Source of the DNA: Terriglobia bacterium
Lineage (GTDB): Bacteria > Acidobacteriota > Terriglobia > Terriglobales > Acidobacteriaceae
Assembly (NCBI GenBank): GCA_032252755.1
Contig: JAVUPY010000052.1
Coordinates: 186,001 to 250,000 of the forward strand
Direction of reading: 5' to 3'
Length of the DNA: 64,000 bases
Shown here: positions 26,594 through 43,342 of the stretch, piece after piece
How the letters are laid out: each line of letters begins with the position of its first letter
Position numbering within the stretch: position 1 is the first letter of the stretch
The notes under the pieces: generated by a model
Told to the model about the DNA's origin: nothing
Seen by the model: the letters and a program-made list of their open reading frames with translations, nothing else
Database searches by the model: none
Translations under genes and position numbers: made by a program

Positions 26594-27727
<1,134 letters not shown>

Positions 27728-27741
27728 CAACGCAGGAACCA

Positions 27742-28290
27742 CTACACCGAATACGAAATTCCCTGATCATTCGCCGCTGCAATCGAATTGCTAATCGTCT
27801 GCATTGGCACAGACTTCGCCCCGCGCTTCATCGCCACGATCCCCGTGCGCACCATCTCGAGCACGCCATAGGGCCGCAGCACTTCAAGCAGTCCATCAAT
27901 CTTGTCCTCGGTTCCAGTAATCTCCACTGTCACCGAATCCGGCGCGACATCAATCACCCGCCCACGAAATACGCCGACGAGATCCAGCACATGCGGCCGA
28001 GACTCCTGCGCGCACGCAACCTTAATCATTGCCAGGTCGCGCACAATCGACGGGTGTGCCGTAATGTTTTCGACCAGCAGAACGTTGACGAGTTTGTATA
28101 GGTGCGCCTCGATTCGCTTCGCGCCGTCAGCGTCCGTGTCGACGACGATCGTCATTCTCGACACATCCGGGTTGTCAGTCCGTCCCACGTTCAGCGAGTC
28201 GATATTGAAAGCGCGCCGGCGGAATAGCGAGGCCACCCGCGTCAGCACACCTGGCTTATTTTCGACATGCACCACAAATACATTCAGCAT
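27742..28290 (-). CDS. ilvN: Acetolactate synthase small (regulatory) subunit
   Basis: The ACT-domain subunit (182 residues) that activates IlvB and confers valine feedback inhibition. The N-terminal ACT domain (FVVHVENKPGVLTRVASLFRRRAFNIDSLNVGRTDNPDVSRMTIVV) is canonical, followed by the second ACT-like domain (EITGTEDKIDGLLEVLRPYGVLEMVRTGIVAM). It starts 2 bp after the ilvB stop, consistent with stoichiometric co-translation. Confidence 0.95.
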   Translation of the reverse strand: MLNVFVVHVENKPGVLTRVASLFRRRAFNIDSLNVGRTDNPDVSRMTIVVDTDADGAKRIEAHLYKLVNVLLVENITAHPSIVRDLAMIKVACAQESRPHVLDLVGVFRGRVIDVAPDSVTVEITGTEDKIDGLLEVLRPYGVLEMVRTGIVAMKRGAKSVPMQTISNSIAAANDQGISYSV

Positions 28291-28292
28291 GA

Positions 28293-30002
28293 TTACGCAT
28301 CCGTTGCGGTTTCCACGATGGGACTCGGACGGCGGATCATGCGATGCAAATCCGCTCCAGCCGGAACCATCGGGTAAACCGTGTCTTCCTGTTCGACCTG
28401 GAAATCGATGAGCACAGGCCCGTCGTGCTCACGTGCAGCCTGCACCGTGGGAATCACATCCTTGCGTTGATCAACCTTGACCGCGTGAATCCCAAACGCT
28501 TCGGCTAGCTTCACAAAGTCCGGATTCAACAGGGGCGTCGCCTGGTAATTCCTCTCGTAGAAGAACTCCTGCCACTGCCGCACCATTCCGAGATAGCCGT
28601 TGTTGATGATGGCGATGTGGATCTTCAGCTTTTCTTGCGCTAGCGTCGCCAACTCCGGCATCGTCATCTGGAAACCGCCGTCGCCGACGACGACCCAGAC
28701 CTCCGCATCCGGGCGCGCCATCTTTGCGCCAATCGCCGCCGGCAGTGCGAATCCCATCGTGCCCAATCCACCAGACGTGATCAGCGAGCGTGGGTCTTCG
28801 TGCTTGTAGTACTGCGCCTCCCACATCTGGTGCTGGCCTACGTCGGTCACCACAATCGCGTGACCGTGCGTCTGCTGCCAGATGTCGTTGATCACGTGCG
28901 CAGCATAGAGATGGCCGTTGTCCGGAAGGTTCTGAATGTCGCGTACCGCCGCATCGCCTTTAAGTTTCTGGATGTAATCGAACCACTCTATGCGCTCGCG
29001 TGCCTCGACCTCCGGCAGGAGTTGATCGAGGACATCCTTCAGGTCGCCGACCAGCGGTACATCCACTTTGACGTTCTTGTTAATCTCCGAAGGATCTATC
29101 TCGACGTGGATCTTCTTTGCTCCGGGCGCATACGTGCTCAAGTTCCCGGTCACGCGATCGTCGAAACGCATACCCAGCGCGATCAGAAGATCGGCATCCT
29201 GGATCGTGTGGTTCACCCACGCCTCACCGTGCATGCCCATCATCCCGAGATTTAGCGGATGCGACGCCGGGAGCGCACCGATCCCGAGCAGCGTCAGCGC
29301 CACGGGGATATTCGCGCGTTCCGCGAGTTCGATGACTTCCCGCGTTGCGCCCGACATCATAATGCCGTGCCCCGCGAGGATCACCGGACGCTTCGAGTTG
29401 TGAATCAACTCCAGCGCCTTCTCGTACTCGTCCATCTCCGGCGAAAGATCTGGCCGATACCCTGGCAGTTGCGGCTTTGCGCCCTCCCAGTCAAACTCGC
29501 AAGAAGACTGCTGCGCATCTTTGGTGATGTCGATGAGCACCGGCCCCGGCCGCCCCGACTTTGCGATATAGAACGCCTCGCGAATGGTCTGCGCGATCTC
29601 GCTCGCATGCGTGACCAGGTAATTGTGCTTCGTCACGGGCAACGTCACCCCCGTGATGTCCGTTTCCTGGAATGCGTCTGAGCCGATTAGCTTGCTGCCC
29701 ACCTGCCCGGTGATGCACACGATCGGCGACGAATCCATCATCGCAGTGGCGATGCCCGTCACCATGTTGGTCGCGCCCGGCCCCGAGGTCGCAATCGCGA
29801 CGCCCACTTTGCCGCTCGCGCGCGCATAACCATCTGCCATGTGCGTCGCGCCCTGCTCATGACGCACCAGCACGTGGTGAATAGAGGAGTGCTTCAGCGC
29901 GTCATAGGTCGGCAGAATCGCCCCGCCCGGATACCCGAACACGACGGACACGCCCTCGCGCTCCAAACACTCCCAGATTATTTCCGCTCCCGTCTTCATC
30001 AT
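28293..30002 (-). CDS. ilvB: Acetolactate synthase large (catalytic) subunit
   Basis: A thiamine-diphosphate enzyme that condenses pyruvate with pyruvate or 2-oxobutyrate. About 569 residues from the ATG at 30002, which gives the usual MKTGAEIIWECL opening; a GTG at 30017 would add five. FGYPGGAILPTYDAL with the following conserved Glu (VRHEQGATHMADGYAR), the central FAD-binding region, and the ThDP-Mg motif VVVGDGGFQMTMPELATLAQEKLKIHIAIINN are all present. In the operon it follows ilvD across a repeat-filled spacer. Confidence 0.96.
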   Translation of the reverse strand: MMKTGAEIIWECLEREGVSVVFGYPGGAILPTYDALKHSSIHHVLVRHEQGATHMADGYARASGKVGVAIATSGPGATNMVTGIATAMMDSSPIVCITGQVGSKLIGSDAFQETDITGVTLPVTKHNYLVTHASEIAQTIREAFYIAKSGRPGPVLIDITKDAQQSSCEFDWEGAKPQLPGYRPDLSPEMDEYEKALELIHNSKRPVILAGHGIMMSGATREVIELAERANIPVALTLLGIGALPASHPLNLGMMGMHGEAWVNHTIQDADLLIALGMRFDDRVTGNLSTYAPGAKKIHVEIDPSEINKNVKVDVPLVGDLKDVLDQLLPEVEARERIEWFDYIQKLKGDAAVRDIQNLPDNGHLYAAHVINDIWQQTHGHAIVVTDVGQHQMWEAQYYKHEDPRSLITSGGLGTMGFALPAAIGAKMARPDAEVWVVVGDGGFQMTMPELATLAQEKLKIHIAIINNGYLGMVRQWQEFFYERNYQATPLLNPDFVKLAEAFGIHAVKVDQRKDVIPTVQAAREHDGPVLIDFQVEQEDTVYPMVPAGADLHRMIRRPSPIVETATDA

Positions 30003-30027
30003 CCCGTTTTGCCCCACCCCATTTGGC

Positions 30028-30154
30028 CGTCATCCCGAGCGAGGATCGCGCTTGTTGTTCACGCGCCGCAGTTTACCGGGGTCCCCGGCACGCCCGCATT
30101 TGGTGTGCTGGGGTGGCTTAGCGCGTCGCGACCGCAGTCGAGGGACCTGCATTT
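30028..30154. repeat. Second CGTCATCCCGAGCG-type element, between ilvD and ilvB
   Basis: Begins CCGTCATCCCGAGCGAGGAT and ends CGCAGTCGAGGGACCTGCAT, matching the two ends of the 27669 copy. Its middle is about 65 bp longer, as if a further unit had been inserted. Confidence 0.6.
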
Positions 30155-31880
30155 ACTTCCCGGCTCTGCTGCTCACGGCGAAATCCGGCGTTCCCGCCGC
30201 CTGATAGATCTCTGTAATCGCCCCACGTGCAGCCGACGAAACTGTCGCCGCATACTTCGCGAACACCCCGGTCTTGTATCCAGGCTCCGGCGCTTTCCAC
30301 TTCCGCAACCGTGACTTAATCTCCTCGTCCGGCACCGCCATCGAGAGTTCTCTCTTCGCGATATCGAACGTGATCATGTCACCGTCGCGTATCGCCGCAA
30401 TCGGTCCACCGACGGCAGCTTCCGGCGCCACATGCCCTGCCATCAAGCCGCGAGTCGCCCCGGAGAATCGTCCATCGGTTAGCAGCGCCACCGTGTCACT
30501 CAACTCAGCGATCCCCGCAATCGCGGCCGTAACGCCCAGCATCTCGCGCATTCCCGGACCGCCTCGCGGCCCCTCGTAGCGAATGACGACAACGTCGCCA
30601 GCCTGGATCCGTGCATCCTGCACCGCCGCAAACGCGTCCTCTTCCGAATCGAACACGCGCGCCGGTCCGCGATGATTGAGGTGCTCATGTCCCGCAACCT
30701 TCACGACGCAGCCCTCGGGTGCAAGATTTCCCTTCAGAATCACATGCCCCCCGGTCGGCTTGAGTGGCTGCGCGTTCGGCCGAACCACGACTTGTCCCGG
30801 TGTCTCCGCTGCCGAAGTAGCTTCTTCCGCAATCGTTCGCTGCGTGACCGTCATCGCGGCTTCGTGCAAGAGCCCAGCCTCGAGCAGACGATTGGCTACT
30901 AACCTTGTCCCACCCGCCTCGTAAAGATCGGTTGCCATGAACCGGCCTCCGGGTTTGAGATCGCAAAGCAGCGGCACGCGCCGATTGATTCGATCGAAGT
31001 CGTCGATGCTCAGTTCAATCCCCATCTCGTGCGCAATCGCCAGCAGGTGCAAAACGGCGTTGGTCGATCCGCCCGACGCGGCGACGCTCGCAATTGCGTT
31101 TTCAATCGCGTCGCGCGTGATGATCTGGCTTGGCCGCACATCAGCCCTGAAGAGTTCCATCACCAGCTGCCCGGCCTCGTACGCTACCTTGTTCTTCGCT
31201 TCGACCATCGCCGGAACTGCATTCGCGCCCATCGGCGAAATCCCCAGGAACTCACTTACCATCGACATCGTGTTCGCCGTGAACTGCCCGCCGCATGCCC
31301 CCGCGCCCGGACACGCGCTCTCTTCCAGCATCTGCAACTCCGCATCGCTCATCGCACCGCGCGCATGAGCCCCGACCGCTTCGAACACATCCTGGATGGT
31401 GACGTTCTTCTCGTGAAACTTTCCCGGCGCGATCGATCCGCCGTACAGCATCACCGACGGCACATCAACGCGCGCGATCGCCATGATCGTCCCCGGAATC
31501 GTCTTGTCACATCCCGAGATCGCCACCATACCGTCGAACAGATTTCCCCGCGCGACGAGTTCGATCGAATCGGCGATCACCTCGCGGCTCACCAGCGACG
31601 CCTTCATTCCCTGCGAACCCATCGTGATCCCATCCGAGATCGACACCGTGTTGAACTCCATCGGCGTCCCGCCCGCGTCTCTCACGCCCTTCTTAATGTG
31701 GTCCGCGAGTTCGCGCAGGTGGTAGTTGCACGGCCCAATCTCGATCCATGTGTTCGCAATCCCGATGATCGGTTTCTTCAGGTCCTCACTCGTAAATCCT
31801 GCCGCATGAAGCATCGCCCGCGCCGGCGCGCGGTTCGGTCCATCCGTAATAGCTGCACTTTTCCTGGGTTGATCCGGCAT
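30153..31880 (-). CDS. ilvD: Dihydroxy-acid dehydratase
   Basis: An Fe-S dehydratase of the third step of Val/Ile synthesis (575 residues). Cluster cysteines are visible in [16 protein letters not shown] and [47 protein letters not shown] and the [22 protein letters not shown] motif of the C-terminal domain are intact. First gene of the ilvDBNC set. The 258 bp upstream contain a plausible TTGATA-N17-AATCAT promoter in an AT-rich patch. Confidence 0.96.
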
Positions 31881-31974: not shown

Positions 31975-32117
31975 TATCATTCACTTTGCCTAATACTGCA
32001 ATTGAAACTTATGCGCCCTCTTGCTGCTGTAATCACCCCACCTAAATGCCTCAACCGAAGGAAATTAAGCCGCTGTCGCCATCCTTATGAAGCTATCGGG
32101 CAGCTTATGATTTCAGG

Positions 32118-32151
32118 CCCGACGTTTAGCATCCGTGCTCAAACCGTCGGG
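32118..32151 (-). terminator. thrB: Strong hairpin spanning the thrB stop codon
   Basis: On the minus strand CCCGACG-G-TTT-G-AGCA pairs with TGCTAAACGTCGGG around a CGGA loop. It starts inside the last thrB codons and includes the stop. There is no T-run after it, so it may stabilise the mRNA 3' end or act with Rho rather than as a canonical intrinsic terminator. Confidence 0.45.
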
Positions 32152-33068
32152 GGCACCGATTCTACCGCGCGCAAACTCTCCTCACCCTGATGCACGCTCA
32201 AAACTCGCACCGCGCACGCATTCCCCGTCCGCAGATACGTCCTTCGCATGAGCGCCGCAATCGCCTCGACATTATTCTGTGCGAACCCCACCAGCGACGG
32301 CCCCGCTCCGCTCAAGCAAACGCCCAGCAAATCCGGATGCTCCAATCCGAGCAGGTCTTCCAATCCCGGCACCAGTTTCTCCCGATACGGCTGATGCAAC
32401 CGGTCGTGCAGCGCCTCGCGCAACAAACCATAACTCTCGTTTTGCAGCGCGCTCATCAGCAGCACCACGCGCTGAAGGTTGTACACCGCATCCTGTCGCG
32501 ACACATGCGACGGCAGCACCTGTCGCGCCGCCTGCGTCGACAACCCAAACTCCGGCGTCAGCACAATCATCTGTAGCGACTCCGGCCAGCGAAACTGCAC
32601 TGCCACAGCCGATCCATCCGGCAACTCGCAGCTCGCGGTCATTCCGCCCAGCAGCGCCGCCGCGACATTATCTGGATGCCCCTCCAGCGCGGTCGCCGCA
32701 TTCAGCATCTGGTTCGGCGATAGCGGCCTCGCCACTGCGTCGTACAACCGGATCCCCGCGACGGTAGCCGCCGCGCTACTCCCCAGCCCCGACCTCATCG
32801 GGATATCGCTGCGAACCTCCACCTTGAGCGACGGCAAGTCTTTCGGCAACTGGCGCGCCAGAAATCGAAACGCCCGCTCAATGTAGTTCTCGCCCTGAAG
32901 TTGCAGCCCTTCAAAGCGAAAATACAATTTCGACTCCGCATCGTCCGTCGCCCGCACTCGCAGCGTGAGATACAACTGCACTGCCACAGCAAGCGTGTCG
33001 AATCCCGGCCCCAGGTTCGCAATTGACGCCGGTACCCGAATCTCAAACTCCTGCGGCGACATTCCCAT
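32139..33068 (-). CDS. thrB: Homoserine kinase
   Basis: A GHMP-family kinase that phosphorylates homoserine before threonine synthase (309 residues). The N-terminal VPASIANLGPGFDTLAVAVQLYL, the ATP-binding loop MRSGLGSSAAATVAGI and the C-terminal GVCLSGAGPSLVGFA motif are the GHMP signatures. Its start overlaps the thrC stop (TGATG), so translation is coupled. Last gene of the lysC-ilvE-hom-thrC-thrB operon. Confidence 0.95.
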   Translation of the reverse strand: MGMSPQEFEIRVPASIANLGPGFDTLAVAVQLYLTLRVRATDDAESKLYFRFEGLQLQGENYIERAFRFLARQLPKDLPSLKVEVRSDIPMRSGLGSSAAATVAGIRLYDAVARPLSPNQMLNAATALEGHPDNVAAALLGGMTASCELPDGSAVAVQFRWPESLQMIVLTPEFGLSTQAARQVLPSHVSRQDAVYNLQRVVLLMSALQNESYGLLREALHDRLHQPYREKLVPGLEDLLGLEHPDLLGVCLSGAGPSLVGFAQNNVEAIAALMRRTYLRTGNACAVRVLSVHQGEESLRAVESVPPTV

Positions 33069-34282
33069 CAGTTCATCCCCACCGTCGACGCATCGCGCAA
33101 ACGCCCCTGCTCGCGCCGAATGATGAACTCCGTGTCTTTCAAAACGTGTCCGGTCAGGATCGCCACTACGCGCGCGTCCGCCTCGATCTTCTTCTCGCCC
33201 GCCAGTTTGTGCAGGGCCGCCAGTGTCGTCGCCGAAGCCGGCTCACACCCAATACCGTCACGTCCAATCACTTCCTTCGCTTCGGCGATCTCCTCATCCG
33301 TCACATCCATCACCCAACCGCCTGTGAACTTCACCGCACGCAACGCCTTCCTCCATGAACGCGGATTCCCGATGCGAATTGCCGTCGCCATCGTTTCCGG
33401 ATGCTCCACTGGCACCAGTTCCGCCGCTCCGCGTCGCCACATCTGGGCCAGCGGGTTGGCCCCTGCCGCCTGCACGACCACGAGTTTCGGCACATGCTCG
33501 ATCAACCCCGCCGCCTTCAGTTCCTCGAACCCTTTTCCGAACGCGGACGAGTTCCCGAGATTCCCGCCCGGCACGATCAGGTAATCCGGCGGATCCCACC
33601 CGAACTGCTCGCAGAGATGGAACATCGTCGTCTTCTGCCCCTCGATCCGGAACGGATTGATCGAATTCAAAAGGTAAATGTTCTCTTTTGAGGATTCGAT
33701 CACCGCATCCAGCGCCGCATCAAAACTGCCTTTGATCTGCACGACGTCGGCCCCGTAATCGAGAGTCTGCGCCAGCTTGTTGACGGAAATCTTTCCCTCT
33801 GGCAGATAGACTCGAACCTTCAGCCCAGCACGCGCCCCATACGCGGCCAGCGATCCAGAGGTATTTCCCGTCGAAGCGCAGGCGACAATTTTTGCGCCTG
33901 CGACTTTCGCCTCCGTCACTCCAACCGTCATTCCCAGGTCCTTGAAGCACGCCGTCGGGTTCCACCCCAGGTGCTTGAACCACAAATTCCGCAACCCCGC
34001 GTATTCAGCCGTGATGTTGCCGCGCACGATGGGACAATTCCCTTCTCCCATCGTGACGACCGCTTCCACCGGGTACTCCGGAAGAAACTCGCGGAAGCGC
34101 CAGACACCGCTCAGATCGCGCGGATCGTCGGAGACTCGCCGCTGCGCCCAGAGCCGCTTCAGTTTTCCGGGCTCGCACTCGACCTCCGGCTCCAGTTCCA
34201 GCAGTTCACCACATTTCGGACAGCTCAACCGGCGATCGTGCAAATCGAGTTCGTAGTGGCACTCACTGCATTGCAGTCTCAT
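33068..34282 (-). CDS. thrC: Threonine synthase with N-terminal zinc ribbon
   Basis: A PLP enzyme that converts O-phosphohomoserine to threonine (404 residues). A short zinc ribbon opens the protein (CSECHYELDLHDRRLSCPKCG), followed by the PLP lysine in NPTACFKDLGM, the CASTGNTSGSLAAYGARAG phosphate cup and the VPGGNLGNSSAFGKGF segment. It belongs to the short ThrC type common in archaea and many bacteria. Overlaps thrB by 1 bp; 39 bp separate it from hom. Confidence 0.93.
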   Translation of the reverse strand: MRLQCSECHYELDLHDRRLSCPKCGELLELEPEVECEPGKLKRLWAQRRVSDDPRDLSGVWRFREFLPEYPVEAVVTMGEGNCPIVRGNITAEYAGLRNLWFKHLGWNPTACFKDLGMTVGVTEAKVAGAKIVACASTGNTSGSLAAYGARAGLKVRVYLPEGKISVNKLAQTLDYGADVVQIKGSFDAALDAVIESSKENIYLLNSINPFRIEGQKTTMFHLCEQFGWDPPDYLIVPGGNLGNSSAFGKGFEELKAAGLIEHVPKLVVVQAAGANPLAQMWRRGAAELVPVEHPETMATAIRIGNPRSWRKALRAVKFTGGWVMDVTDEEIAEAKEVIGRDGIGCEPASATTLAALHKLAGEKKIEADARVVAILTGHVLKDTEFIIRREQGRLRDASTVGMN

Positions 34283-34321: not shown

Positions 34322-35617
34322 TCATCCCAATATCGGCATATCCACCGGCGCCGCCACATGGAAAGTCAGGTTCCGAATTTCCGCCAGCGCCTCGCGCAAC
34401 TTCTCGCTGCGACACGGCTCCAGCGTGATCACGAACGGCAACGACGCCTTCGAAAATCCCGGCCGCTGCAGCACCGAATCGATGTTGATTCCATGCCCCG
34501 AGAACACATTCGCCAGAGCCGCAATAATTCCCGGCTTGTCCGCTACTTTGAACCGGACGTAATGCGCACTGTTGAAATCGCCGCTCACCTTCAGCTTTCG
34601 CGCCGCACTCCAACCGACACTTGCCTGATTCTCACGATTCCGTGCCAGCCACAGCAGGTCGGAAACCACCGCCACCGCCGTTGGATCACCACCGGCACCG
34701 TGTCCTGAGAAAACTGTTTCGCCGCCGAACTCGCCCTTCGAAACAACGACGTTCTGGCTGCCCGTCACCCGCGCCAGCGCCGAACTCTGCGGCGCCAGGC
34801 ACGGCTGCACCCGCGCGTACAACGTGTCACCCTGTAACTCTGCCCGAGAAATCTGTCGTATGGTGCACCCCAAATCGTGCGCGTAAGCAAAGTCGATCTG
34901 CTCCACCTCACGAATGCTGTGCGTCTCCACCTGCTCCGGTTCCAACGACGCGTTCAGTGCCGTGCGCGCCAGGATCGTCAGCTTTGCCCTCGCATCGAAC
35001 CCGTCGATATCCTCCGACGCATTTGCCTCTGCAAATCCCTTCGCCTGCGCCTGCTCCAGCGCCTCGCTGAACGAGATCCCCGCATTCTCAATCTGGCTAA
35101 GGATGAAGTTGCACGTGCCGTTCAAAATGCCGCTGATGCGCTGGATGCGATCGCCCGCGAGTCCTTCCTGCAAGCCCAGCAGCACCGGGATGCCGCCCGC
35201 GACCGAGGCACCATATAGAAGATGGCACCCATGCTCCGCTGCCAGCTGCAACAGCTCCGGGCCGCAGCGGGCCATCAACTGTTTGTTGGCCGTCACCACC
35301 GACTTGCCCGACTCCAGCGCCCGACGCACCCACTCCTCTGCCGGATCCAATCCGCCGATCAGTTCCAGCACGACATCGCAGTCGGACGTCAGCACGTCAT
35401 CGACATTTTCCGTCCACACGACCTCGCGCTTCACCCAATCGACCTTCTTGCGATCGATGTTGCGGTTGTAGACGTGCGTCAAGTGGAGTTGCCCAGCCCC
35501 GGCCGTGAGAATGCGTGCGACCGAGCGTCCGACCGTGCCGAACCCGATCAGTCCAACCTTGCATCGCTCGTCGCGCGCCTCGCTCGCTTCTTTAGTCACC
35601 TGCGGCGACGTTACCAA
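34322..35617 (-). CDS. hom: Homoserine dehydrogenase
   Basis: An NAD(P)-dependent enzyme converting aspartate semialdehyde to homoserine (431 residues). The Rossmann motif VGLIGFGTVGRSVARIL, the VVTANKQLMA segment, the catalytic stretch GGIPVLLGLQEGLAGDRIQRISGILNGTCNFIL and a C-terminal ACT domain (VRFKVADKPGIIAALANVFSGHGINIDSVLQ) for threonine feedback are all present. The TTG at 35617 has an AGGAGG 6 nt upstream, so I keep it; the start overlaps ilvE by 26 bp. Confidence 0.95.
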   Translation of the reverse strand: MVTSPQVTKEASEARDERCKVGLIGFGTVGRSVARILTAGAGQLHLTHVYNRNIDRKKVDWVKREVVWTENVDDVLTSDCDVVLELIGGLDPAEEWVRRALESGKSVVTANKQLMARCGPELLQLAAEHGCHLLYGASVAGGIPVLLGLQEGLAGDRIQRISGILNGTCNFILSQIENAGISFSEALEQAQAKGFAEANASEDIDGFDARAKLTILARTALNASLEPEQVETHSIREVEQIDFAYAHDLGCTIRQISRAELQGDTLYARVQPCLAPQSSALARVTGSQNVVVSKGEFGGETVFSGHGAGGDPTAVAVVSDLLWLARNRENQASVGWSAARKLKVSGDFNSAHYVRFKVADKPGIIAALANVFSGHGINIDSVLQRPGFSKASLPFVITLEPCRSEKLREALAEIRNLTFHVAAPVDMPILG

Positions 35618-36572
35618 GCCCCGCCTCCTTTGCTGCCTCGCTCCGTGCCGGCACCTTCACATAATCCAGCCACCGTGCAGAAAACTTGTGCTTGCCTCGA
35701 ACTGCCTTGGTAAATGCGCGCTGCAACCGCTGCGTCACCGGGCCCGTCTCGCCCCCACCGATCTTGCGGAAATCAATCTCGCGCAGCCCGATCACCTCGG
35801 CAGCCGTACCCGACACAAAGACTTCATCGGCGAAATACAGCTGGTCCCGCGAAACCGGCTGCTCCGTCACGCTATATCCCAGATCGCGCGCCAGTGCAAT
35901 GATGCTGTCCCGCGTGATGCCCTCAAGCACGCCGGCCGCTGGCGTCGTGTAGATAGCTCCCTTGCGCACCAGGAACAGGTTCTCTCCCGTGCACTCGGCG
36001 ACGTACCCCTGCGGGTCGAGCATGATCGCCTCGTCGAATCCCAGCCGCACCGACTCGGTCTTGGCCAGCACCGAGTTCACGTAATTCCCGCAGATCTTTG
36101 CCTTCGTCATCGTCACGTTCGCGTGGTGCCGGGTGAACGACGAGGTGTTGGCGCGGACGCCGCGCTCCAGCGCCTCATGACCAAGATACGCTTCCCAATT
36201 CCACGCGGCGATACCAACGTGAGGCTCACCGTTATCGATACACAAATTCCATCCGCCCTCGGCGAGATACACCAGTGGTCTAACGTAGCAGTTTCCAAAA
36301 CCATTCGCGGCGACCACTTCCAGCACCGCGTCACAGAGTTCATCCACCGAGTACGGCAGTTCGCGCCACCCGAGAACCTGTGCCGACTGCTCCAGCCGAC
36401 GCATATGGTCTTTCAACCGAAATACCGCCGGCCCGCGATCCGCCTGGTAGCACCGGATACCCTCGAATACCCCGACGCCGTAATGCAGACCCGCCGTCAA
36501 AAACGGCAACTGCGCCGCATGCTGATCCCGCAACTCTCCATTAAGCCAGATGAAATTCCCTGTCTTCGACAT
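35592..36572 (-). CDS. ilvE: Branched-chain-amino-acid aminotransferase
   Basis: A fold-type IV PLP aminotransferase for the last step of Ile/Val/Leu synthesis (326 residues from ATG 36572, preceded by AGGAG; a TTG at 36575 is also possible). It opens FIWLNGELRDQHAAQLPFLTAGLHYGVGVFEGIRCY, with YVRPLVYLAEGG, the catalytic Lys region (HANVTMTKAKICGNYVNSVLAKTE) and GTAAEVIGLREID. It is embedded between lysC (32-bp overlap) and hom (26-bp overlap), which links threonine and branched-chain synthesis in one transcript. Confidence 0.94.
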   Translation of the reverse strand: MSKTGNFIWLNGELRDQHAAQLPFLTAGLHYGVGVFEGIRCYQADRGPAVFRLKDHMRRLEQSAQVLGWRELPYSVDELCDAVLEVVAANGFGNCYVRPLVYLAEGGWNLCIDNGEPHVGIAAWNWEAYLGHEALERGVRANTSSFTRHHANVTMTKAKICGNYVNSVLAKTESVRLGFDEAIMLDPQGYVAECTGENLFLVRKGAIYTTPAAGVLEGITRDSIIALARDLGYSVTEQPVSRDQLYFADEVFVSGTAAEVIGLREIDFRKIGGGETGPVTQRLQRAFTKAVRGKHKFSARWLDYVKVPARSEAAKEAGLGNVAAGD

Positions 36573-37977
36573 CAATCGCTCTCCTCACCTTTGTGACTTC
36601 GTGTTTTCGTAATACTTCTTTTTTCGGAAAGAAATGTGCGTGCAGTTTTGCTACTGCCTTTGGCACCGCCTCTTCATCGACGACCACGCTGATGTTGATC
36701 TCCGAGGCGCCCTGCGAAATCATGTGGATATTCACGCCGGCGTCCGCCAGCACGCGAAACACGCTCGCCGCAATACCGACCGTCCCGCGAATGTCCTTCC
36801 CCACCAGGCACACAATCGCCTTGCGAGGCTCGACATCCACCTCACCCAACTCTCTTAGTTCCGGAACCATGGCCGCGACATCGTGCGACGGATCGACCAC
36901 CAGCGACACGCTCACTTCCGAGGTCGACACCAGGTCCACCGGGCAGCGATGCTTCGCGAGTATGTCGAACATCGCTTTCAGGAAGCCCGAGGCCATCAGC
37001 ATCCGCGGCGCGCGTAGGTTAATCACCGTCGATCCCTTCTTCGCAGCGATTGCTCGGAACGTCGTCCGGCTGGGCGCCACCTTGCTGCGAACGCACGTCC
37101 CACTGCTCCGTGGCTTCCGTGAATTCAGCACGTAGACGGGGATATCGCGCTCCACTGCCGGCAATAACGTAGCGGGATGCAGCACCTTCGCTCCGAAATA
37201 TGCAAGCTCTGCCGCCTCGTCGAAGCTGATCGTGCGGATTCGCTGCGCGTCCGGGCATAGTCGCGGATCCGTCGTGAGCATCCCCTCGACATCGGTCCAG
37301 ATCTCGATTGCCTCTGCATCAAGCAGCGCGCCGAAAATCGCCGCTGAGTAGTCCGACCCGCCACGCCCGAGCGTCGTCACCTCGCCGTCTTCCGTTCCGC
37401 CGATAAATCCTCCCATCACCGGAATCTTTCCCTTCGAAAGCAGCGGTGCAACTGTTTTGGTCAACCGCTCGCCGGTCCGCTCGAATAAGGGCTGCGCACT
37501 CTTGTGCATCGCGTCAGTCACCATCAATTCGCGCGAATCAACATGAACTCCAGCAAGTCCTTCCGCGCGGAACGCCGCCGCAACCAACAAACTCGACAAA
37601 ACCTCCCCATAAGAAAGAATGAGATCGGTAGTGCGATTCGAAAGCTCCCCAAGCGCTGCCACGCCCTTGAGCAACAACTCCAGCGATTTAACGTTCTCTT
37701 CGAAAGCCGCAAGCAGAAAATTCAGTTCCTGGCCCGATACCAGCTCACGCGCGGCCTCAACGTGCCGCGCCTCAAACCTCGCGAGTTCATCGAGCGCCGG
37801 CGCCAATTCATTCCGCTCCGCAGCCTCGCCCATCCGAACCAGCGCATCCGTCATCTTGGCCAAGGCACTTACCACTACCAGCGGACTCTTCGTGAGGCGC
37901 CAGCGAACAATTTGTGCCACCCGCCGAATCGCCTTGGCGTCCTCCACCGACGTCCCACCAAACTTCATCACGATCAT
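36541..37977 (-). CDS. lysC: Monofunctional aspartate kinase
   Basis: The first enzyme of the aspartate family pathway (about 478 residues). KFGGTSVEDAKAIRRVA opens the kinase domain; FIGGTEDGEVTTLGRGGSDYSAAIFGALLDAEAIEIWTDVEGMLTTDPR is the substrate and ATP region; two C-terminal ACT domains follow (INLRAPRMLMASGFLKAMFDILAKHRCPVDLVSTSEVSVSLVVD and AIVCLVGKDIRGTVGIAASVFRVLADAGVNIHMISQGASEINISVVVDEE). I chose ATG 37977, which has AAAGG nine bases upstream; TTG 37986 is the alternative. First structural gene after the attenuator leader. Confidence 0.95.
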   Translation of the reverse strand: MIVMKFGGTSVEDAKAIRRVAQIVRWRLTKSPLVVVSALAKMTDALVRMGEAAERNELAPALDELARFEARHVEAARELVSGQELNFLLAAFEENVKSLELLLKGVAALGELSNRTTDLILSYGEVLSSLLVAAAFRAEGLAGVHVDSRELMVTDAMHKSAQPLFERTGERLTKTVAPLLSKGKIPVMGGFIGGTEDGEVTTLGRGGSDYSAAIFGALLDAEAIEIWTDVEGMLTTDPRLCPDAQRIRTISFDEAAELAYFGAKVLHPATLLPAVERDIPVYVLNSRKPRSSGTCVRSKVAPSRTTFRAIAAKKGSTVINLRAPRMLMASGFLKAMFDILAKHRCPVDLVSTSEVSVSLVVDPSHDVAAMVPELRELGEVDVEPRKAIVCLVGKDIRGTVGIAASVFRVLADAGVNIHMISQGASEINISVVVDEEAVPKAVAKLHAHFFPKKEVLRKHEVTKVRRAIDVEDREFHLA

Positions 37978-38089
37978 TTTCGGCAACCTTTCCTATCAAT
38001 GCCGTTATCCGGAGCGCCCCAAGTAGCGAGGAGTTGCGGAACCCGCATTTCTCGCCGCCCCGCTGTCTCGGGTCGCGCCAAAATTCACA

Positions 38090-38128
38090 CCTAAAACACG
38101 AAAGCCCACCGTCTTATTGGCGGTGGGC
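38090..38128 (-). terminator. Attenuator terminator in the lysC leader
   Basis: On the minus strand GCCCACCG (38128-38121), a 9-nt loop and CGGTGGGC (38111-38104) are followed by TTTCGTGTTTTAG. It lies between the leader ORF and lysC, so it would abort transcription before the structural genes. Its 5' arm (TTCGAGCCCACCGCCA) can alternatively pair with the end of the leader ORF (TGGCGG-A-CTCGAA), which would prevent termination. Confidence 0.72.
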
Positions 38129-38155
38129 TCGAATCTCTCTGAACTTTGCTTTAGA

Positions 38156-38248
38156 TCATTTCGAGTCCGCCATCCCTGGGAGCACAATAATTCGTGTCAC
38201 TGTCATAATGACCGTCGACAGGCTCACCGAGATGGCGTTGAAATGCAT
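38156..38248 (-). CDS. Putative Thr/Ile/Val-rich attenuator leader peptide
   Basis: A 30-codon ORF upstream of lysC. Codons 12-23 encode T-V-I-M-T-V-T-R-I-I-V-L: eleven of twelve are Thr, Val, Ile, Met or Leu, the products of the operon's pathways. It ends 28 nt before the terminator stem. The last codons (MADSK-stop) contain TGGCGGACTCGAA, complementary to the terminator's 5' arm, so a ribosome stalled at the Thr/Ile/Val codons would leave this segment free to form an antiterminator, while one reaching the stop would cover it. The ribosome site is weak (ACGGA). This is the arrangement of E. coli thrL/ilvL, inferred here from sequence alone. Confidence 0.6.
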   Translation of the reverse strand: MHFNAISVSLSTVIMTVTRIIVLPGMADSK

Positions 38249-38259
38249 AAAGTCCGTGT

Positions 38260-38288
38260 AGAGTAACCTACCTTTTCTTAGAGGTCAA
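38260..38288 (-). promoter_or_regulatory. Candidate promoter of the lysC operon
   Basis: TTGACC (38288-38283), 17 bp, TACTCT (38265-38260) on the minus strand. Transcription would begin close to 38253, just ahead of the leader ATG. A second possibility, TTGTAA-N17-GATTCT, lies about 28 bp farther upstream and would give a longer 5' end. Confidence 0.5.
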
Positions 38289-38424
38289 GAATCCATCGCG
38301 AGATTTCCGGTTACAAACATCACAAAAGTTTGGGGTTCAAATGAAATTGCCGATTCGGAATTTTTACTGAACGGCAGAGCAATGGAGCAGGAGATTGGCC
38401 GTGCCATGGCTCGCATTCGGGCTC

Positions 38425-38433
38425 TGCTATAAT
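38425..38433 (+). promoter_or_regulatory. Extended -10 promoter of tRNA-Pro
   Basis: TGC-TATAAT, a perfect -10 hexamer with the TGN extension, about 48 bp upstream of the tRNA. No good -35 is seen at 17 bp spacing, which is usual for extended -10 promoters. Confidence 0.6.
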
Positions 38434-38481
38434 AAAAATGTAGCGACGAGTTCTTTCCTGCCTTCGTCGCGCCTTCCTAGT

Positions 38482-38558
<77 letters not shown>

Positions 38559-38583
38559 ATCTTTCTCTCGCATTCTCAATTGT

Positions 38584-39834
38584 TTACGCTGCCTCTACTG
38601 CTTCGTTTTTTTGTGCAGTTTTCGGTACATTCGGTACAACTGAGGGCAATTCGAATCCGAATCCGCACCGTTCTGCCCATTTTCTGCGGAATGCCACGTC
38701 CTCTTTGATCTTGTCGTAGAGGTCGCTCATATCCTCCCCCGCATGACCCATCCAGTATTTGTATAGTCCCGCAGGGCACTCCGTGTAATTCCGCAGGTAC
38801 GTATTCCGAAAACGACGAAACGCATGGTTTCCAGCTTTGTGCGTTCCCGTAAACGGATTCACGTATTTGAGTTCTTTCAGCGCCTTATGCAGATGACGCC
38901 TGATTATGTTCGTTGGCGACACTGGTTTTCCTTTTCGAGTACAGAAGAGGAATCCCGTCTTGCGGTCGCCAATGAACTGTTTGAGCATCTCGGCAATGCT
39001 CGGGTGAAGATCGACCTGACGAAAGCCGTTCGCAGTCTTGAGCCGCAGTTCGACTTTCCCGTGACGAACCTTCTGCTTGATGTAGAGAGTCAGGAAGTCG
39101 GACGACATGTGCTTGTCGATTTCGATACCGAGCACCTCTCCGATTCTCAAACCCGCCGCACCGCACAGGATGAAAATCATCCGTTCCCGTGACTTCTTCC
39201 ATCGCACCAAACCGTTCATTACCTCAGCAGAAAAGGACGGCGTGTTCTGCTTGTCCTTTTCGACGACGGGCAGATCGATGAACTCGTGATTCCACTTGCG
39301 CGGATAGATTTGCTCTCCTTCCTCATCGACAGCGGAAGCCACCACCATCTTGACCACTGGCACGTAGTTATCACTTATCGTCTTCGGCGACAAACCGCCT
39401 TCCGACATTCTGGCAACGAGTGTTTTGAGCACTGCATTGTTGACCTCGGATAGCGGCAGGTCTCCGATATTCGGGTTGATCCAATTATCCAAGCAGCCTT
39501 TCCAAAGTTCCAACGTCGCATTTGCTAATGGTTTGCGCTTGCGACGCTGAATGTGGTTCAGCCACCACTTCGCTTGCTGGCGGAATGTGACGCCGTGAGC
39601 CTGTTTCACCACCTTGTCGAAGAGCTCAACTGTATCCGCTCCGCTCCCCGTGATGATTTCACGGGCGCGCCGTTCTCTTTCTGATTTGGATATGCAACCG
39701 GGACCGGAGATCGGGCATATCTTGGCTCGCATGTGCCTTCTCTCTTCCTGTCCCGGTACATCCATCCACCAACGAACAACCCACCATTTACCGCTCACTT
39801 CAATGTGGCCGTTCTGACCAGTTCGGCGGGACAT
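38584..39834 (-). CDS. int: Tyrosine recombinase / ICE integrase
   Basis: A 416-residue site-specific recombinase. I use the ATG at 39834 (AGAGG upstream); the open frame extends 101 codons farther with no protein-like character. A SAM-like core-binding domain occupies about residues 80-180. The catalytic set is visible: R in AAGLRIGE (about 229), HAFR (H336, R339), H of WMGHAG (about 364) and the nucleophile Y in SDLYDKI (about 372). It points to tRNA-Pro, whose 3' end is 25 bp from the int stop, so it most likely integrates and excises this element there. Confidence 0.92.
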   Translation of the reverse strand: MSRRTGQNGHIEVSGKWWVVRWWMDVPGQEERRHMRAKICPISGPGCISKSERERRAREIITGSGADTVELFDKVVKQAHGVTFRQQAKWWLNHIQRRKRKPLANATLELWKGCLDNWINPNIGDLPLSEVNNAVLKTLVARMSEGGLSPKTISDNYVPVVKMVVASAVDEEGEQIYPRKWNHEFIDLPVVEKDKQNTPSFSAEVMNGLVRWKKSRERMIFILCGAAGLRIGEVLGIEIDKHMSSDFLTLYIKQKVRHGKVELRLKTANGFRQVDLHPSIAEMLKQFIGDRKTGFLFCTRKGKPVSPTNIIRRHLHKALKELKYVNPFTGTHKAGNHAFRRFRNTYLRNYTECPAGLYKYWMGHAGEDMSDLYDKIKEDVAFRRKWAERCGFGFELPSVVPNVPKTAQKNEAVEAA

Positions 39835-40045
39835 ACACTTTCCTCTCCGCTTCACTGGTGTCGCTGGAACGAACTTAATATCAGTGGTCGACAATTGCAA
39901 TGGACGGAATTCCCTGATCCGCCGAGAGTGCGAACGTTCTCGCACCGAGGCTTCTTCATTCACCGCCAGAAAGGTGCCGCTCTCCTCAGGCGAATTGCCG
40001 TGGAAAGAAAGAATGGAAACAGCGCGAATGGCTAAAGGGAAATGC

Positions 40046-40174
40046 TTAAGGGAAGGACGTCCCGCCGCCGAGTCTGATATACGGCGGCCCCAGCCCTGCC
40101 CACCGCCAATACCGCAGCGTGCTCTCTGGCAAATCAAGAATCGCGGACACTTGTTTCGTATTGATCAACTTCAC
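40046..40174 (-). pseudogene. Truncated AlpA/MerR-type HTH protein (excisionase-like remnant)
   Basis: A short reading frame whose N-terminus, VKLINTKQVSAILDLPESTLRYWRWAGLGPPYIRLGGG, is the classical winged HTH of AlpA/Xis-type excisionases. Such proteins normally run on by 20-30 residues after YIRLG, but here a stop follows GGTSFP. A neighbouring frame stays open through the region, so a frameshift is possible. I take the GTG at 40174 as start. It lies just upstream of int on the same strand, the usual place for a recombination directionality factor. It may be a very short functional protein or decayed. Confidence 0.5.
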
Positions 40175-40294
40175 CGTCCCGCACCTCAAGCGTGAAATCG
40201 CACTGGTTGTCCTGCTTGCTGATCGGCGGCGATTTTCACCAAACCAATCGAAAGACAACCCGGCACGCTCAAGTTAGGCCGGAAATCTTCAGTC

Positions 40295-40336
40295 GATCTA
40301 TATCTTTTTGAGCCGACTTATTCCGTTTAGATATAA
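40295..40336 (-). promoter_or_regulatory. 42-bp ICE element, copy 1 (upstream of xis/int)
   Basis: Read on the minus strand it begins TTATATCTAAACGGAATAAG and ends CAAAAAGATATAGATC. It matches copy 2 at 57622-57663 at 36 of 42 positions. Arms TTATATCT and AGATATAG form an AT-rich inverted repeat with 31 bp between corresponding bases. It lies about 120 bp ahead of the HTH/int reading frames and in their orientation, suggesting an operator or activator site. Confidence 0.6.
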
Positions 40337-40619
40337 ATCCACGCCCACACTCTGTTGCACGGAGACCACAATCCCAGCTCCGCCCAGAATCAGAAGATTC
40401 CACCTGAGACCTGCTTTCCTGACTCCATGCACGTAAAGCCAACCTCTCGGATTGCGCCTACGCGCGCCGTTCCCCGCACTTCCGCCGGGCGAGTGCGCCC
40501 ACTCCGCTACGCTCCGGGACGGCCCTTCGGGACAGCGCGTCCGCGCGCCAAACGATAAAGCTGTTTGGCACTTGCCACGCCCGCCACTCGGTCCTTCACC
40601 CTCGCCCTCTGTCGTTCCT
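40337..40619. other. Non-coding GC-rich palindromic region (possible oriT or other cis site)
   Basis: No gene is supported here. The stretch about 40470-40555 is dense in short palindromes and alternating CG words (GGGCGAGTGCGCCCACTCC, CGGGACGGCCCTTCGGGAC, GCGCGTCCGCGCGC). Similar GC-rich, inverted-repeat-rich tracts accompany transfer origins or replication sites in plasmids and ICEs, and this lies between the int and ardC/parB modules. No relaxase gene or known nic sequence was recognised, so the assignment is tentative. Confidence 0.3.
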
Positions 40620-40700
40620 CTTTGTCTCCCTGTGGTTCGTTTTTTCCTTCGCTTCGCTCCCAGGTGAAAGAAAAAAACGCCCCACAGGGCAGACAAAGGA
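40620..40700. repeat. Long imperfect inverted repeat in the ardC 5' leader
   Basis: The left arm CTTTGTCTCCCTGTGG...CGTTTTTTCCTTC is matched by the reverse complement of the right arm GAAAGAAAAAAACG...CCACAGGGCAGACAAAG, about 30 pairs around a short loop. The right arm reaches into the AAAGGA ribosome site of ardC, so the folded mRNA could block translation. Confidence 0.65.
40666..40690 (-). terminator. Minus-strand intrinsic terminator inside the inverted repeat
   Basis: On the minus strand GCCC-TGTG-GGGC is followed by GTTTTTTTC. The stem is short but the T-run is excellent. It would stop antisense transcription entering from ardC toward the int region. Confidence 0.5.
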
Positions 40701-40707
40701 AAAAACA

Positions 40708-41649
40708 ATGGAATATCAAAGCAACAACAACAGCAACGGCTCAGCCGCCGTCAATGCGGCTTCCGGCAGTAATAACCGGAAGCCCGCGACCGCACAGCAG
40801 CTCATCCGCGAAAACGTGCAGTATCTCATCCAGCAACTCGAAGCCGGACACAGCGAAGCCCTCACCGCCTTCCTCGACGCAATGGCTCATTTTCACAACT
40901 ACTCGTTCGGAAATGTTTTGCTGATTGCGCGGCAGAGACCCACGGCAACGCATGTTGCAGGGATGAGAACGTGGAACGAGCTAGGCCGCCGCGTAAAACG
41001 CGGGGAAAAGGGCATCGCCATTCTTGCGCCCATGATTGGCAAGAACCGCAAGAAGCGGAAGCAGGAGAGCGAAGAAATCGACTCGAACAAGTCCGCTCTG
41101 CTCGGCTTTCGTCGCGTCTACGTGTGGGATGAGGCGCAGACCGACGGCGCACCACTGCCAACGCTCGGAGAGACCACCGGAGAAGTCGGCGAATATCACG
41201 ACCGCTTGCGGGAGTTTGTCTCTTCACGCGGAATCGCCTTGGAGTACAGCGAAGACATCGCGCCTGCATTGGGTGTTTCCTACGGCGGCAGAATCGCGCT
41301 GCTGCCCGGACAGACGAAGGCCGAGGAGTTCGCCGCTCTTGTTCACGAGACCGCGCACGAATTTCTGCACAAGGCCGAGCGGCGCACGGCAACTACCAAG
41401 ACGGTGCGAGAGACGGAAGCGGAAGCAGTCGCCTTTGTCGTCGCAAAAGCCATCGGCCTGAACGCCAACACCAGCGCTGCTTACATCCAGCTTTACCACG
41501 GCAACGCCGAGTTGCTGATGGAAAGCCTTGAAGTCGTCCAGCAAACAGCTTCCGCGATCCTCTCGGGAATCCAGACGAAAGAATCCATTTCACAGGAAGG
41601 TCCCGACTCTCAGTTTTCAACCACGGAAGCGGCACAGACCGCCGCCTAA
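40708..41649 (+). CDS. ardC: ArdC-type ssDNA-binding / zincin-like antirestriction protein
   Basis: A 313-residue ICE protein. The N-terminal ArdC domain (about residues 28-125) shows NYSFGNVLLIARQRP, GMRTWNELGRRVKRGEKGIAILAP and RVYVWDEAQT. The C-terminal zincin-like domain carries HETAHEFLH (about 213-221) with the ETEAEAVAFVVAKAIG helix supplying the distal ligand, an HExxH peptidase signature. ArdC proteins enter recipients during conjugation and protect incoming DNA from restriction; the peptidase part is intact here. AAAGGA precedes the ATG, within a long inverted repeat. Confidence 0.85.
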   Translation: MEYQSNNNSNGSAAVNAASGSNNRKPATAQQLIRENVQYLIQQLEAGHSEALTAFLDAMAHFHNYSFGNVLLIARQRPTATHVAGMRTWNELGRRVKRGEKGIAILAPMIGKNRKKRKQESEEIDSNKSALLGFRRVYVWDEAQTDGAPLPTLGETTGEVGEYHDRLREFVSSRGIALEYSEDIAPALGVSYGGRIALLPGQTKAEEFAALVHETAHEFLHKAERRTATTKTVRETEAEAVAFVVAKAIGLNANTSAAYIQLYHGNAELLMESLEVVQQTASAILSGIQTKESISQEGPDSQFSTTEAAQTAA

Positions 41650-41731
41650 CCGCACCGCACCATAGGCGCGGACAGGCGAAGTGTGTCTGTCCGCTCGACT
41701 TTCACCTATTACTCGAAAGGAGCAAATCGTC

Positions 41732-43342
41732 ATGTCTACCGCAGTTAGCATCAACAACAATGAATACCGCAATCTGCCTGTCGTACAGTTGCAGGAATCG
41801 CCCACCAACCCACGCCGCCGCTTCGATGAACACAGCCTAGCGGAACTGGCTGCCAGCTTTACGGCCCAAGGAGTGTTACAGCCCTTGCTTGTTCGCGAGA
41901 TCGAAGAAAGCAAGTACGAGGTCGTTGCCGGAGCACGCAGATTGCGTGCCGCCAAACTGGCAGCACTCGAAACCGTTCCTGTGCGGGTTGTGGAACTCTC
42001 GGACGCCGCCTGTGCCGAGGCTCAGTTGGTCGAGAACATTCAGCGCGAAGGCGTGCATCCTCTGGAGGAAGCCTTCGCCTTCCACGTGCTTCTGCACACG
42101 GATGGGCTTCAGTACGACATCCAGAGTTTGGCTGCCAAGGCTGGAAAGAGTCCGGCTTTCGTGGCAACTCGGTTGCGCTTGACCGAACTGATTCCATCCA
42201 TTGCCGAGGCCTTCTTGGCAGACCAGATCGGAGTAGGACACGCGCTGGAAATTGCCAAACTGCCGCAATCAGAACAGCAACTCGCATTCGATGCGGCATT
42301 CCGTACCGTCTGGAGTGGCAGCAAAGAAAGTCGCGTATTGCTGCCCGTGCGGGAGTTGACGGCATGGCTTGAGCAGAACATCCTGCTCTCACTTGATGCC
42401 GTGGCGTTCGACAAGGGCGATGAAACACTTGTGCCAGAAGCCGGGAGTTGTACGAACTGCCCCAAACGAACCGGATACAACACGCTGCTCTTCGATGCAG
42501 CGTTGAAAGATAGTTGTACCGATCAGCATTGCTACAACAACAAGCTCAGCAAACTCGTCGAGCGACAGATTGCCGAGAAACCGAAGCTGGTACAAATCAC
42601 GACCAGCTACGGAACGCGCGGCGATGATGCCGTGCTTGGACGCAACCGTTACGTCGCCTTGAATCTTTCGGCGAAGAACAGGAAGTCAAAAGCGCCACTC
42701 TCGCCACACCAGAAGCCATGCAAGCAAATGAGCGAGGCGATTGTGGTGGACGGCACGGAACGTGGTCACATCGTAAAGGTATGCACCGATCCGACTTGTT
42801 CCGTTCACTTCGCCGACCGAGCCGCACCCAATCCAGAGCAGATGGCAAAGGAGCGTGAACAGCGGCGCAAGGAACTGGAACGGCAGAAGCTCGAAACCAC
42901 GGTGCGGCACCGCACGCTGGCCGAAGTGCTCAAGCGCGTTGGTTCTCCGCTCGACCGTGCCGACCTCGTTCTGGTAGCGAGTGCGCTGCTGAATAGGCTC
43001 GAACCCATGAGGAAAGAAGTGTTCGCGCGGAGGCACAAGCTGATTGAAAAGACAGGCAGCGAGGTGACGTATCCGCAGGTGCAGCAGGCCATCGCAAAGC
43101 TGCTGCGGCAAGCGGATGAGGCAGCGCTATCAAAGCTGCTGATCGAGGTCACCTTGCTGGAGGTTGCGGACCACCCATCCCAAAGCGATGCAGATGCTCT
43201 GACTACAACGGCCAAACGGCATCGCGTGGACGTAGTGAAGGTCCGCAAAGCGGTCGAGCAGGAGTTTGCCGCCAAGCGAGACAAGCAGGAGAGTAAGCAG
43301 AAAACCGCTGCGAAAAAGACAGCCGCGAAACCCGCTGCGTAA
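41732..43342 (+). CDS. ParB/RepB/Spo0J-family partition-like protein
   Basis: A 536-residue protein. The ATG at 41732 follows GAAAGGAG; an earlier start at 41681 has no such site. The N-terminal ParB nuclease-like domain contains SPTNPRRRFDE, GVLQPLLVRE, the GARR box (VAGARRLRAAKLA, about 64-76) and ENIQREGVHPLEEA. An HTH region follows (SLAAKAGKSPAFVATRLRLTELIPSI). The C-terminal half has several CxxC pairs (GSCTNCPKRTGYN, CTDQHCYNNKL) and a Lys/Ala-rich tail. Such long ParB-like proteins are common in ICEs and plasmids of environmental bacteria; no parA is adjacent, so a regulatory or transfer role is as likely as partition. Confidence 0.85.
   Translation: MSTAVSINNNEYRNLPVVQLQESPTNPRRRFDEHSLAELAASFTAQGVLQPLLVREIEESKYEVVAGARRLRAAKLAALETVPVRVVELSDAACAEAQLVENIQREGVHPLEEAFAFHVLLHTDGLQYDIQSLAAKAGKSPAFVATRLRLTELIPSIAEAFLADQIGVGHALEIAKLPQSEQQLAFDAAFRTVWSGSKESRVLLPVRELTAWLEQNILLSLDAVAFDKGDETLVPEAGSCTNCPKRTGYNTLLFDAALKDSCTDQHCYNNKLSKLVERQIAEKPKLVQITTSYGTRGDDAVLGRNRYVALNLSAKNRKSKAPLSPHQKPCKQMSEAIVVDGTERGHIVKVCTDPTCSVHFADRAAPNPEQMAKEREQRRKELERQKLETTVRHRTLAEVLKRVGSPLDRADLVLVASALLNRLEPMRKEVFARRHKLIEKTGSEVTYPQVQQAIAKLLRQADEAALSKLLIEVTLLEVADHPSQSDADALTTTAKRHRVDVVKVRKAVEQEFAAKRDKQESKQKTAAKKTAAKPAA

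Follow-up and report, generated by a model that had tools for sequence, protein, structure and literature searches.

The locus analyzed here raises the question of how a threonine operon that also carries a branched-chain aminotransferase gene, lysC-ilvE-hom-thrC-thrB, is controlled in a soil bacterium of the Acidobacteriota. We refer to the whole stretch of DNA that was analyzed, 64,000 nucleotides in length, as the window. The original prediction had read a short open reading frame (ORF) and a hairpin ahead of lysC as a ribosome-mediated attenuator. With the leader codons and the pairings found in relatives in its support, we hold with little doubt that the window element is a classical ribosome-mediated transcription attenuator for threonine and branched-chain amino acids. 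The leader is very probably a starvation switch ahead of an amino acid operon.

Anatomy of the operon and its leader

The gene order lysC-ilvE-hom-thrC-thrB had been proposed from the letters and open reading frames, and NCBIfam agrees with these identities. The operon and the genes that follow it are as follows.

36541..37977, minus strand: lysC, aspartate kinase (ORF from 37986, ATG at 37977; NCBIfam)
35592..36575, minus strand: ilvE, branched-chain aminotransferase (NCBIfam)
34322..35617, minus strand: hom, homoserine dehydrogenase (NCBIfam)
33068..34282, minus strand: thrC, threonine synthase (NCBIfam)
32139..33068, minus strand: thrB, homoserine kinase (NCBIfam)
30153..31880, minus strand: ilvD, 258 nt after thrB; may have its own promoter (NCBIfam)
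26594..30017, minus strand: ilvB, ilvN, and ilvC (NCBIfam)

The genes from lysC to thrB overlap or nearly do so. Downstream of thrB lie ilvD-ilvB-ilvN-ilvC, and because the 258-nt gap before them contains a promoter-like element of its own, their control by the leader is not assured. The same gap, with an element that resembles the region before ilvD in relatives, weakens the idea of a whole thr-ilv fused operon under one leader. Within the gap (31881-32138) we noted AATTGGACTAATCATC, which by eye is similar to sequence before ilvD in three relatives (L170, L174, and L177) and is possibly a conserved regulator site or the ilvD promoter. A search for ilvB near thr genes in 20 other genomes, in which many assemblies are fragmented, found none. 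On the other side of the operon, at 38482-43342, a tRNA-Pro (cgg) adjoins the gene of a phage-type integrase, and genes of the ArdC-N and ParB types lie further out. This arrangement probably reflects an integrated element that borders the operon; a second copy of the tRNA-Pro 3' end was looked for within the window and not found.

The elements ahead of lysC, all on the same strand as the operon, are listed here in the order in which they would be transcribed.

38283..38288, minus strand: probable -35 box TTGACC (weighted scan, 17-nt spacer to TACTCT)
38260..38265, minus strand: probable -10 box TACTCT, 11 nt 5' of the leader ATG (score 4.1, modest)
38156..38248, minus strand: leader peptide ORF MHFNAISVSLSTVIMTVTRIIVLPGMADSK, 30 amino acids, with related leaders in relatives
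38231..38236, minus strand: segment 1 (GCCATC), which pairs with segment 2
38180..38215, minus strand: control codons 12-23 (TVIMTVTRIIVL)
38188..38194, minus strand: the word CGAATTA, in-frame CGA-ATT-A (Arg-Ile), present in 21 of 31 parsed leaders
38160..38174, minus strand: segment 2 (GATGGCGGACTCGAA), the final leader codons and 5' arm of the antiterminator
38118..38133, minus strand: segment 3 (TTCGAGCCCACCGCCA), common to antiterminator and terminator
38102..38130, minus strand: intrinsic terminator hairpin (segments 3:4), z -6.2
38093..38103, minus strand: T-rich tail TTTCGTGTTTT

The predicted leader of 30 codons at 38248-38156 was borne out by the ORF and its translation. Codons 12-23 read T V I M T V T R I I V L, and the claim that 11 of these 12 are Thr, Val, Ile, Met, or Leu is exact. 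Control codons for the product of the operon are thus clustered within this short ORF, whose composition tracks gene content. A terminator sits between the leader and the first gene, lysC: the stretch 38131-38100 folds at -18.8 kcal/mol (z -6.2), a value equaled by none of 200 shuffles, and its T-tract (TTTCGTGTTTT) is imperfect. The GC-rich terminator expected after the leader was therefore present, at a spacing that differed slightly from that claimed, with the stem beginning about 26 nt past the leader stop codon rather than 28 nt.

The end of the leader had also been described as complementary to the 5' arm of the terminator. This complementarity is present (TGGCGG-A-CTCGAA with TTCGAG-ccca-CCGCCA), and the mutually exclusive pairing recurs in relatives. 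The antiterminator hairpin in the window (38180-38113) folds at -18.6 (z -2.7; 3 of 200 shuffles equal it), and as an isolated duplex its 2:3 pairing reached p=0.08 against shuffles. Beyond the two helices of the original prediction, a classical 1:2 hairpin is also present (duplex p=0.010; hairpin z -2.5, equaled by 4 of 200 shuffles). The 1:2, 2:3, and 3:4 pairings in the window are mutually exclusive. In the window alone, then, the terminator is clear and the alternative pairings are moderately supported, and the case consequently rests on comparison with relatives.

We modeled ribosome stalling as a simple equilibrium with an assumed 15-nt footprint in 12 of the 31 leaders described below. 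With a ribosome at codons 3-21 of the window leader, segment 2 stayed free for segment 3 and the modeled P(2:3) was 0.6-0.8; it fell to 0 from codon 24 to the stop and was 0.49 without any ribosome. In all 12 leaders, a modeled ribosome at the stop codon masked segment 2, and stalls at the control codons left it unmasked. P(2:3) likewise dropped towards the stop in the 11 other leaders, from plateaus of about 0.4-0.8, those of the ilv leaders L176 and L178 being lower.

From this anatomy we infer the start site, leader translation, stalling, termination, and starvation response. Transcription would start just 5' of the leader ATG, and a ribosome would trail RNA polymerase across the leader. 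Were Thr-, Ile-, or Val-tRNA scarce, the ribosome would stall within codons 12-21 and cover segment 1; segments 2 and 3 would then pair, no terminator would form, and lysC-ilvE-hom-thrC-thrB would be transcribed, with readthrough perhaps extending into ilvD-ilvB-ilvN-ilvC. With amino acids plentiful, the ribosome would reach the stop codon at the end of segment 2 and hide that segment, and the 3:4 terminator would halt transcription more than 100 nt before lysC.

Leaders, pairings, and promoters in relatives

For comparison, we fetched upstream regions and 80 named genome loci from relatives, many of them Acidobacteriota metagenome-assembled genomes (MAGs). The search for aspartate kinase was positive in all 61 relatives covered, and that for homoserine dehydrogenase in 108 of 130. 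We parsed 31 leaders, of which 23 were of the thr type and 8 preceded separate ilv operons of relatives and carried their own branched-chain amino acid (BCAA) codons. The thr-type set, which spans at least 19 genera, was made up of 17 leaders at lysC-hom loci, 2 at lysC loci that ended before hom was visible (L043 and L044), and 4 at stand-alone hom loci (L127, L128, L129, and L131). It is important to note that leader starts were picked by eye, so having both an ORF and a hairpin is partly a matter of selection.

A search with the pattern CGAATTA plus CCCACCGCC matched 16 places in 16 of 150 genomes; six were lysC leaders (G000, G004, G015, G032, G105, and G121) and the other 10 appeared chance-like. 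We used a covariance model built from the 23 thr leaders instead. With duplicates counted once, a leader ORF and terminator were present at 18 of 19 distinct lysC-hom-linked loci, comprising the 17 parsed leaders and L165, whose leader (L250) came from the covariance model. The exception, L135 (lysC-hom), had only a chance-level model match (E 0.96). At 25 other stand-alone hom loci (L136-L157, L160, L162, and L164), a word search found no leader and the model found one, in L160, where a Thr leader (MKTNVQICTSITITATTMVAIHPCFWRT, as read by eye) precedes hom. None of 23 stand-alone lysC loci had a model match before lysC. Five stand-alone lysC loci without a model match (L004, L006, L021, L028, and L030) have a short ORF rich in Thr, Ile, Val, and Leu, which in L004, L006, and L021 is probably there by chance. 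For a second lysC in the window's own genome (L181; G000:C59), a scan of 420 nt upstream showed no leader, and the model gave no match either. Before six other ilv operons (L168, L169, L170, L174, L177, and L180), neither a scan of 420 nt nor the model found a BCAA leader.

RNAalifold on a MAFFT alignment returned the terminator helix alone as consensus, and we therefore tested the 1:2 and 2:3 pairings by duplex energies. Against dinucleotide shuffles, the 2:3 energies of the 31 leaders gave a Fisher p of 4e-21 and the 1:2 energies 4e-8; as the leader sequences are related, these pooled values are not strict probabilities. Singly, 2:3 was below 0.05 in 21 of 31 leaders and not significant in 10, with the ilv leaders L167 (p 0.91) and L178 (p 0.99) failing outright. 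The 1:2 pairing was below 0.05 in 10 of 31 leaders and not significant in 21, including 7 of the 8 ilv leaders. For these tests the terminator of L179 was set by hand. Cognate segments paired better than noncognate ones (p 5e-5 for both 2:3 and 1:2, the floor of 20,000 permutations), and the cognate partner was the single best in 2 of 23 thr leaders for 2:3 and in 9 of 23 for 1:2. The alternative pairings thus recur among the parsed leaders, and the check proposed with the original prediction, on control codons and alternative pairings in relatives, came out in its favor. By eye, several leaders (e.g., L013, L019, L026, L129, and L130) also carry TGAGC at the stop codon, followed some 20-30 nt later by GCTCA, possibly a small hairpin between segments 2 and 3.

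The promoter elements were scored with weights from E. coli frequencies. A consensus promoter scan of 37500-39500 gave a single match, on the other strand, and did not pick up TTGACC-17-TACTCT. Since the -10 box ends 11 nt before the leader ATG, the 5' end of the transcript is probably very short, and a short or absent 5' untranslated region is probable for the window leader. No Shine-Dalgarno-like tetramer was seen before its ATG. Across the parsed set, a good -10 box (score ≥5) ending 3-14 nt before the start was found for 16 of 31 leaders versus 7.6% of 527 control positions. The best-scoring -10 box ended 7-13 nt before the leader start at 15 of the 23 thr-type loci and 1 of the 8 ilv leaders, which suggests a near-leaderless start for these.

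Control codons and alternative explanations

Among the parsed leaders, codon content follows downstream gene content, with Thr (and Met) before thr genes and Val, Leu, and Ile before separate ilv genes. Thr made up on average 18.6% of thr leaders versus 6.6% of ilv leaders (p 1.5e-4), and Val plus Leu 7.4% of 21 thr leaders versus 29.4% of 8 ilv leaders (Mann-Whitney p 4e-5). The two leaders before operons with ilvE between lysC and hom, that of the window (20.7% Val plus Leu) and L025 (31.0%), ranked second and first of 23, and since they may share descent they count as two independent events at best. Three of the four leaders in the set before stand-alone hom (L128, L129, and L131) have 3-4 internal Met codons, which would fit homoserine as a precursor of Met.

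Codon choice within residues was also uneven. The rare codon ACA accounted for 69 of 116 Thr codons (8.8 expected) and CGA for 30 of 71 Arg codons (8.9 expected), where the expectation was taken from each locus's own genes and loci with fewer than 8 reference codons per residue were omitted. CGA-ATT was used in 26 of 27 Arg-Ile pairs. The word CGAATTA, present in 21 of the 31 leaders, was in the leader frame in 24 of 24 occurrences at varying positions. We dropped a fixed structural role for it because position varies and frame does not, and a codon role is favored for the same reason; one guess is that slow decoding of CGA underlies the conservation. In-frame CGA-ATT is nearly invariant at the nucleotide level in thr leaders and some ilv leaders. 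Of 15 further model loci outside the training set, 14 were readable thr leaders and one (L204) was misread. In these 15 loci, which came via a sequence model and are not an unbiased sample, CGAATTA occurred in 11, ACA accounted for 48 of 82 Thr codons, and pooled 2:3 pairing gave p 4e-15 against plain shuffles.

The codon content bears directly on what the leader senses. If it mainly sensed threonine, its Val, Ile, and Leu codons would be drift and ilvE a passenger. The Thr/Met kind does predominate among the parsed leaders that precede lysC or hom, and T12, T16, and T18 of the window leader lie within the modeled permissive zone. Against this, both ilvE-containing leaders are high in Val plus Leu relative to the mean of thr leaders, a coincidence with a chance of 1 in 253 if the two are independent, and separate ilv operons use the same residues. 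We regard a leader that mainly senses threonine as unlikely and keep to a leader for threonine and branched-chain amino acids together.

Three further explanations were considered. Random short ORFs are common and the 2:3 duplex of the window alone is not significant, so the hairpin might be the terminator of an upstream unit on the integrase/tRNA side and the ORF a product of chance. The recurrence of parsed leaders across so many genera speaks against this, as do the differing 5' sequences (window, L003, L025, and L037, by eye) and the pathway-matching codons of model matches elsewhere, and we give this explanation almost no weight. Conservation of CGAATTA beyond amino acid need (the Arg-Ile pairs above) could instead point to a leader bound by a ligand or protein, such as a riboswitch, T-box, or target of an RNA-binding protein. 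We consider this very improbable, given that codons change with the operon product and that Rfam offered no match other than the tRNA and chance-level ones: a search of 37500-39500 at E up to 10 returned the tRNA and two chance-level matches only, and eight related loci gave none at the gathering threshold. The upstream ORF might finally act on lysC by translational coupling or reinitiation, as leader genes near a start codon may do according to the account in PMC4833913. Here about 178 nt, the terminator among them, separate the leader stop codon from the lysC ATG, which makes such an action hardly credible.

Related leaders and known systems

The window element belongs to a set of leaders that is common in its family; these look to be built on one scaffold, with codons that fit the downstream genes. 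At E ≤0.01, the covariance model matched 175 of 300 family genomes, a count that includes training genomes and partial or terminator-only matches. In the phylum, 41 of 297 genomes had matches at E ≤0.001; among the matches listed, those above 35 bits were within the family alone, and those outside it scored about 33 bits or less. We inspected 35 matches outside the parsed loci (20 plus 15), which were hand-chosen, full-length, and mostly better scoring: 20 were leaders that fit the downstream pathway, 13 were Cys-rich and preceded other genes, and 2 were misfits. Five of the inspected matches were from outside the family (L245-L249); L246, L248, and L249 look real, and L245 and L247, the two misfits, are low-complexity false matches.

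Eleven of the 20 fitting leaders were Cys-rich, often with poly-Cys, and preceded nitrite/sulfite reductase-type genes, a call made by Pfam for L218 and L255 and by BLASTP to L218 for nine others (L220, L222, L223, L225, L227, L230-L232, and L236). A further Cys leader preceded cysK (L217). BCAA leaders were found before ilvD (L221 and L228) and ilvC (L226). Thr leaders preceded an aspartate kinase gene (L219 and L233), asd (L246), and a GHMP-kinase gene that occupies the thrB position in thrB-lysC-thrC-hom (L250). A Met/Cys leader preceded an O-acetylhomoserine sulfhydrylase-type gene (L249).

The 13 other Cys-rich leaders precede genes that are not Cys biosynthetic. One, in a different family of the phylum (L248; MGMIAYRSECVCCCRIQKGASGGGLSIMT), lies before a sulfur transporter (PF04143); others precede a PF03601 gene (L224), a solute-binding protein (L229), a FadL-type protein (L234), and outer membrane proteins (L252 and L253), and leaders with a CCCC run precede peroxiredoxin-type genes (L256, L257, and L258). 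Three lie several hundred nucleotides 5' of an SrpI-like type 2A encapsulin (PF19307; L235 and L254 by Pfam, L251 by eye), which suggests control by sulfur starvation. In the window's own genome, a Cys-rich leader (L259, G000:C90; MSPCCQSCRITVCTCCGQIRSGVRVVK) precedes a gene of the beta-carbonic anhydrase family. In the PDB, the product of this gene is related to carbonic anhydrases and, to a weaker degree, to carbonyl sulfide and CS2 hydrolases. The link to the gene is loose, with the gene several hundred nucleotides downstream, in L224, L235, L251, L252, L254, and L257.

One scaffold thus appears to be reused with different codon cassettes. On balance, we lean slightly towards a history in which this scaffold (CCAGAAG / TTCTGG..GG / ACCCACCGCCAGA / TCTGGCGGTGGGT, often with a near-leaderless ORF and in-frame CGA-ATT) spread within Acidobacteriota genomes with the cassette rewritten each time, the window copy being a hybrid cassette for a Thr-plus-ilvE operon. 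If so, the spread of the scaffold would amount to a regulon that responds to starvation for Thr, BCAA, Met, and most of all Cys, and one that also covers nonbiosynthetic genes for sulfur transporters, type 2A encapsulin, peroxiredoxin, and outer membrane proteins.

Leader peptide attenuation is best known from Proteobacteria and Actinobacteria, and in the Acidobacteriota, a major soil phylum, attenuators have hardly been assigned: those predicted earlier had almost no associated function as presented in PMC2965389, the main text of which does not mention threonine, homoserine, or aspartokinase. The original prediction held that attenuation of this kind had not been described in the Acidobacteriota. 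Our full-text searches, with subscription papers mostly outside their scope, likewise found no published report of such attenuators in this phylum, with a prediction in the broad survey of Lopatovskaya et al. (2010) as a possible exception. What is new, as far as sequence comparison can tell, is the place of the window element in a widespread family set of leaders with a common scaffold and differing control codons. It gives the Acidobacteriota a concrete and testable amino acid sensing system, in which control codons differ with operon gene content, and supplies sequence signatures with which the regulation of thr, ilv, and cys genes can be annotated in the many genomes of uncultured soil bacteria.

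In E. coli, thrLABC and ilvGMEDA have a leader ORF with codons for the product, alternative 1:2, 2:3, and 3:4 pairings, and a terminator before the first gene. The window leader shares all of these features, but it occurs in another phylum, with another gene order and a probable near-leaderless start, combines Thr with BCAA codons over lysC-ilvE-hom-thrC-thrB, and has no Rfam match. Codon choice differs as well: the E. coli thr leader is described as using eight major ACC codons, in contrast to the rare ACA of the Acidobacteriota leaders (PMC1183508). Actinobacterial trp, cys, and ilvB leaders are described in PMC1262725 as short ORFs with codons for the regulated amino acid before biosynthetic operons, which resembles the arrangement found here; that account gives no conserved RNA structure upstream of actinobacterial threonine operons. 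In mycobacteria, leaderless poly-Cys short ORFs sense Cys and control downstream translation, as PMC9031893 summarizes Canestrari 2020. The poly-Cys leaders before sulfite reductase-type genes are similar to these ORFs but, unlike that actinobacterial system as summarized there, match a terminator-type scaffold common to thr and ilv leaders.
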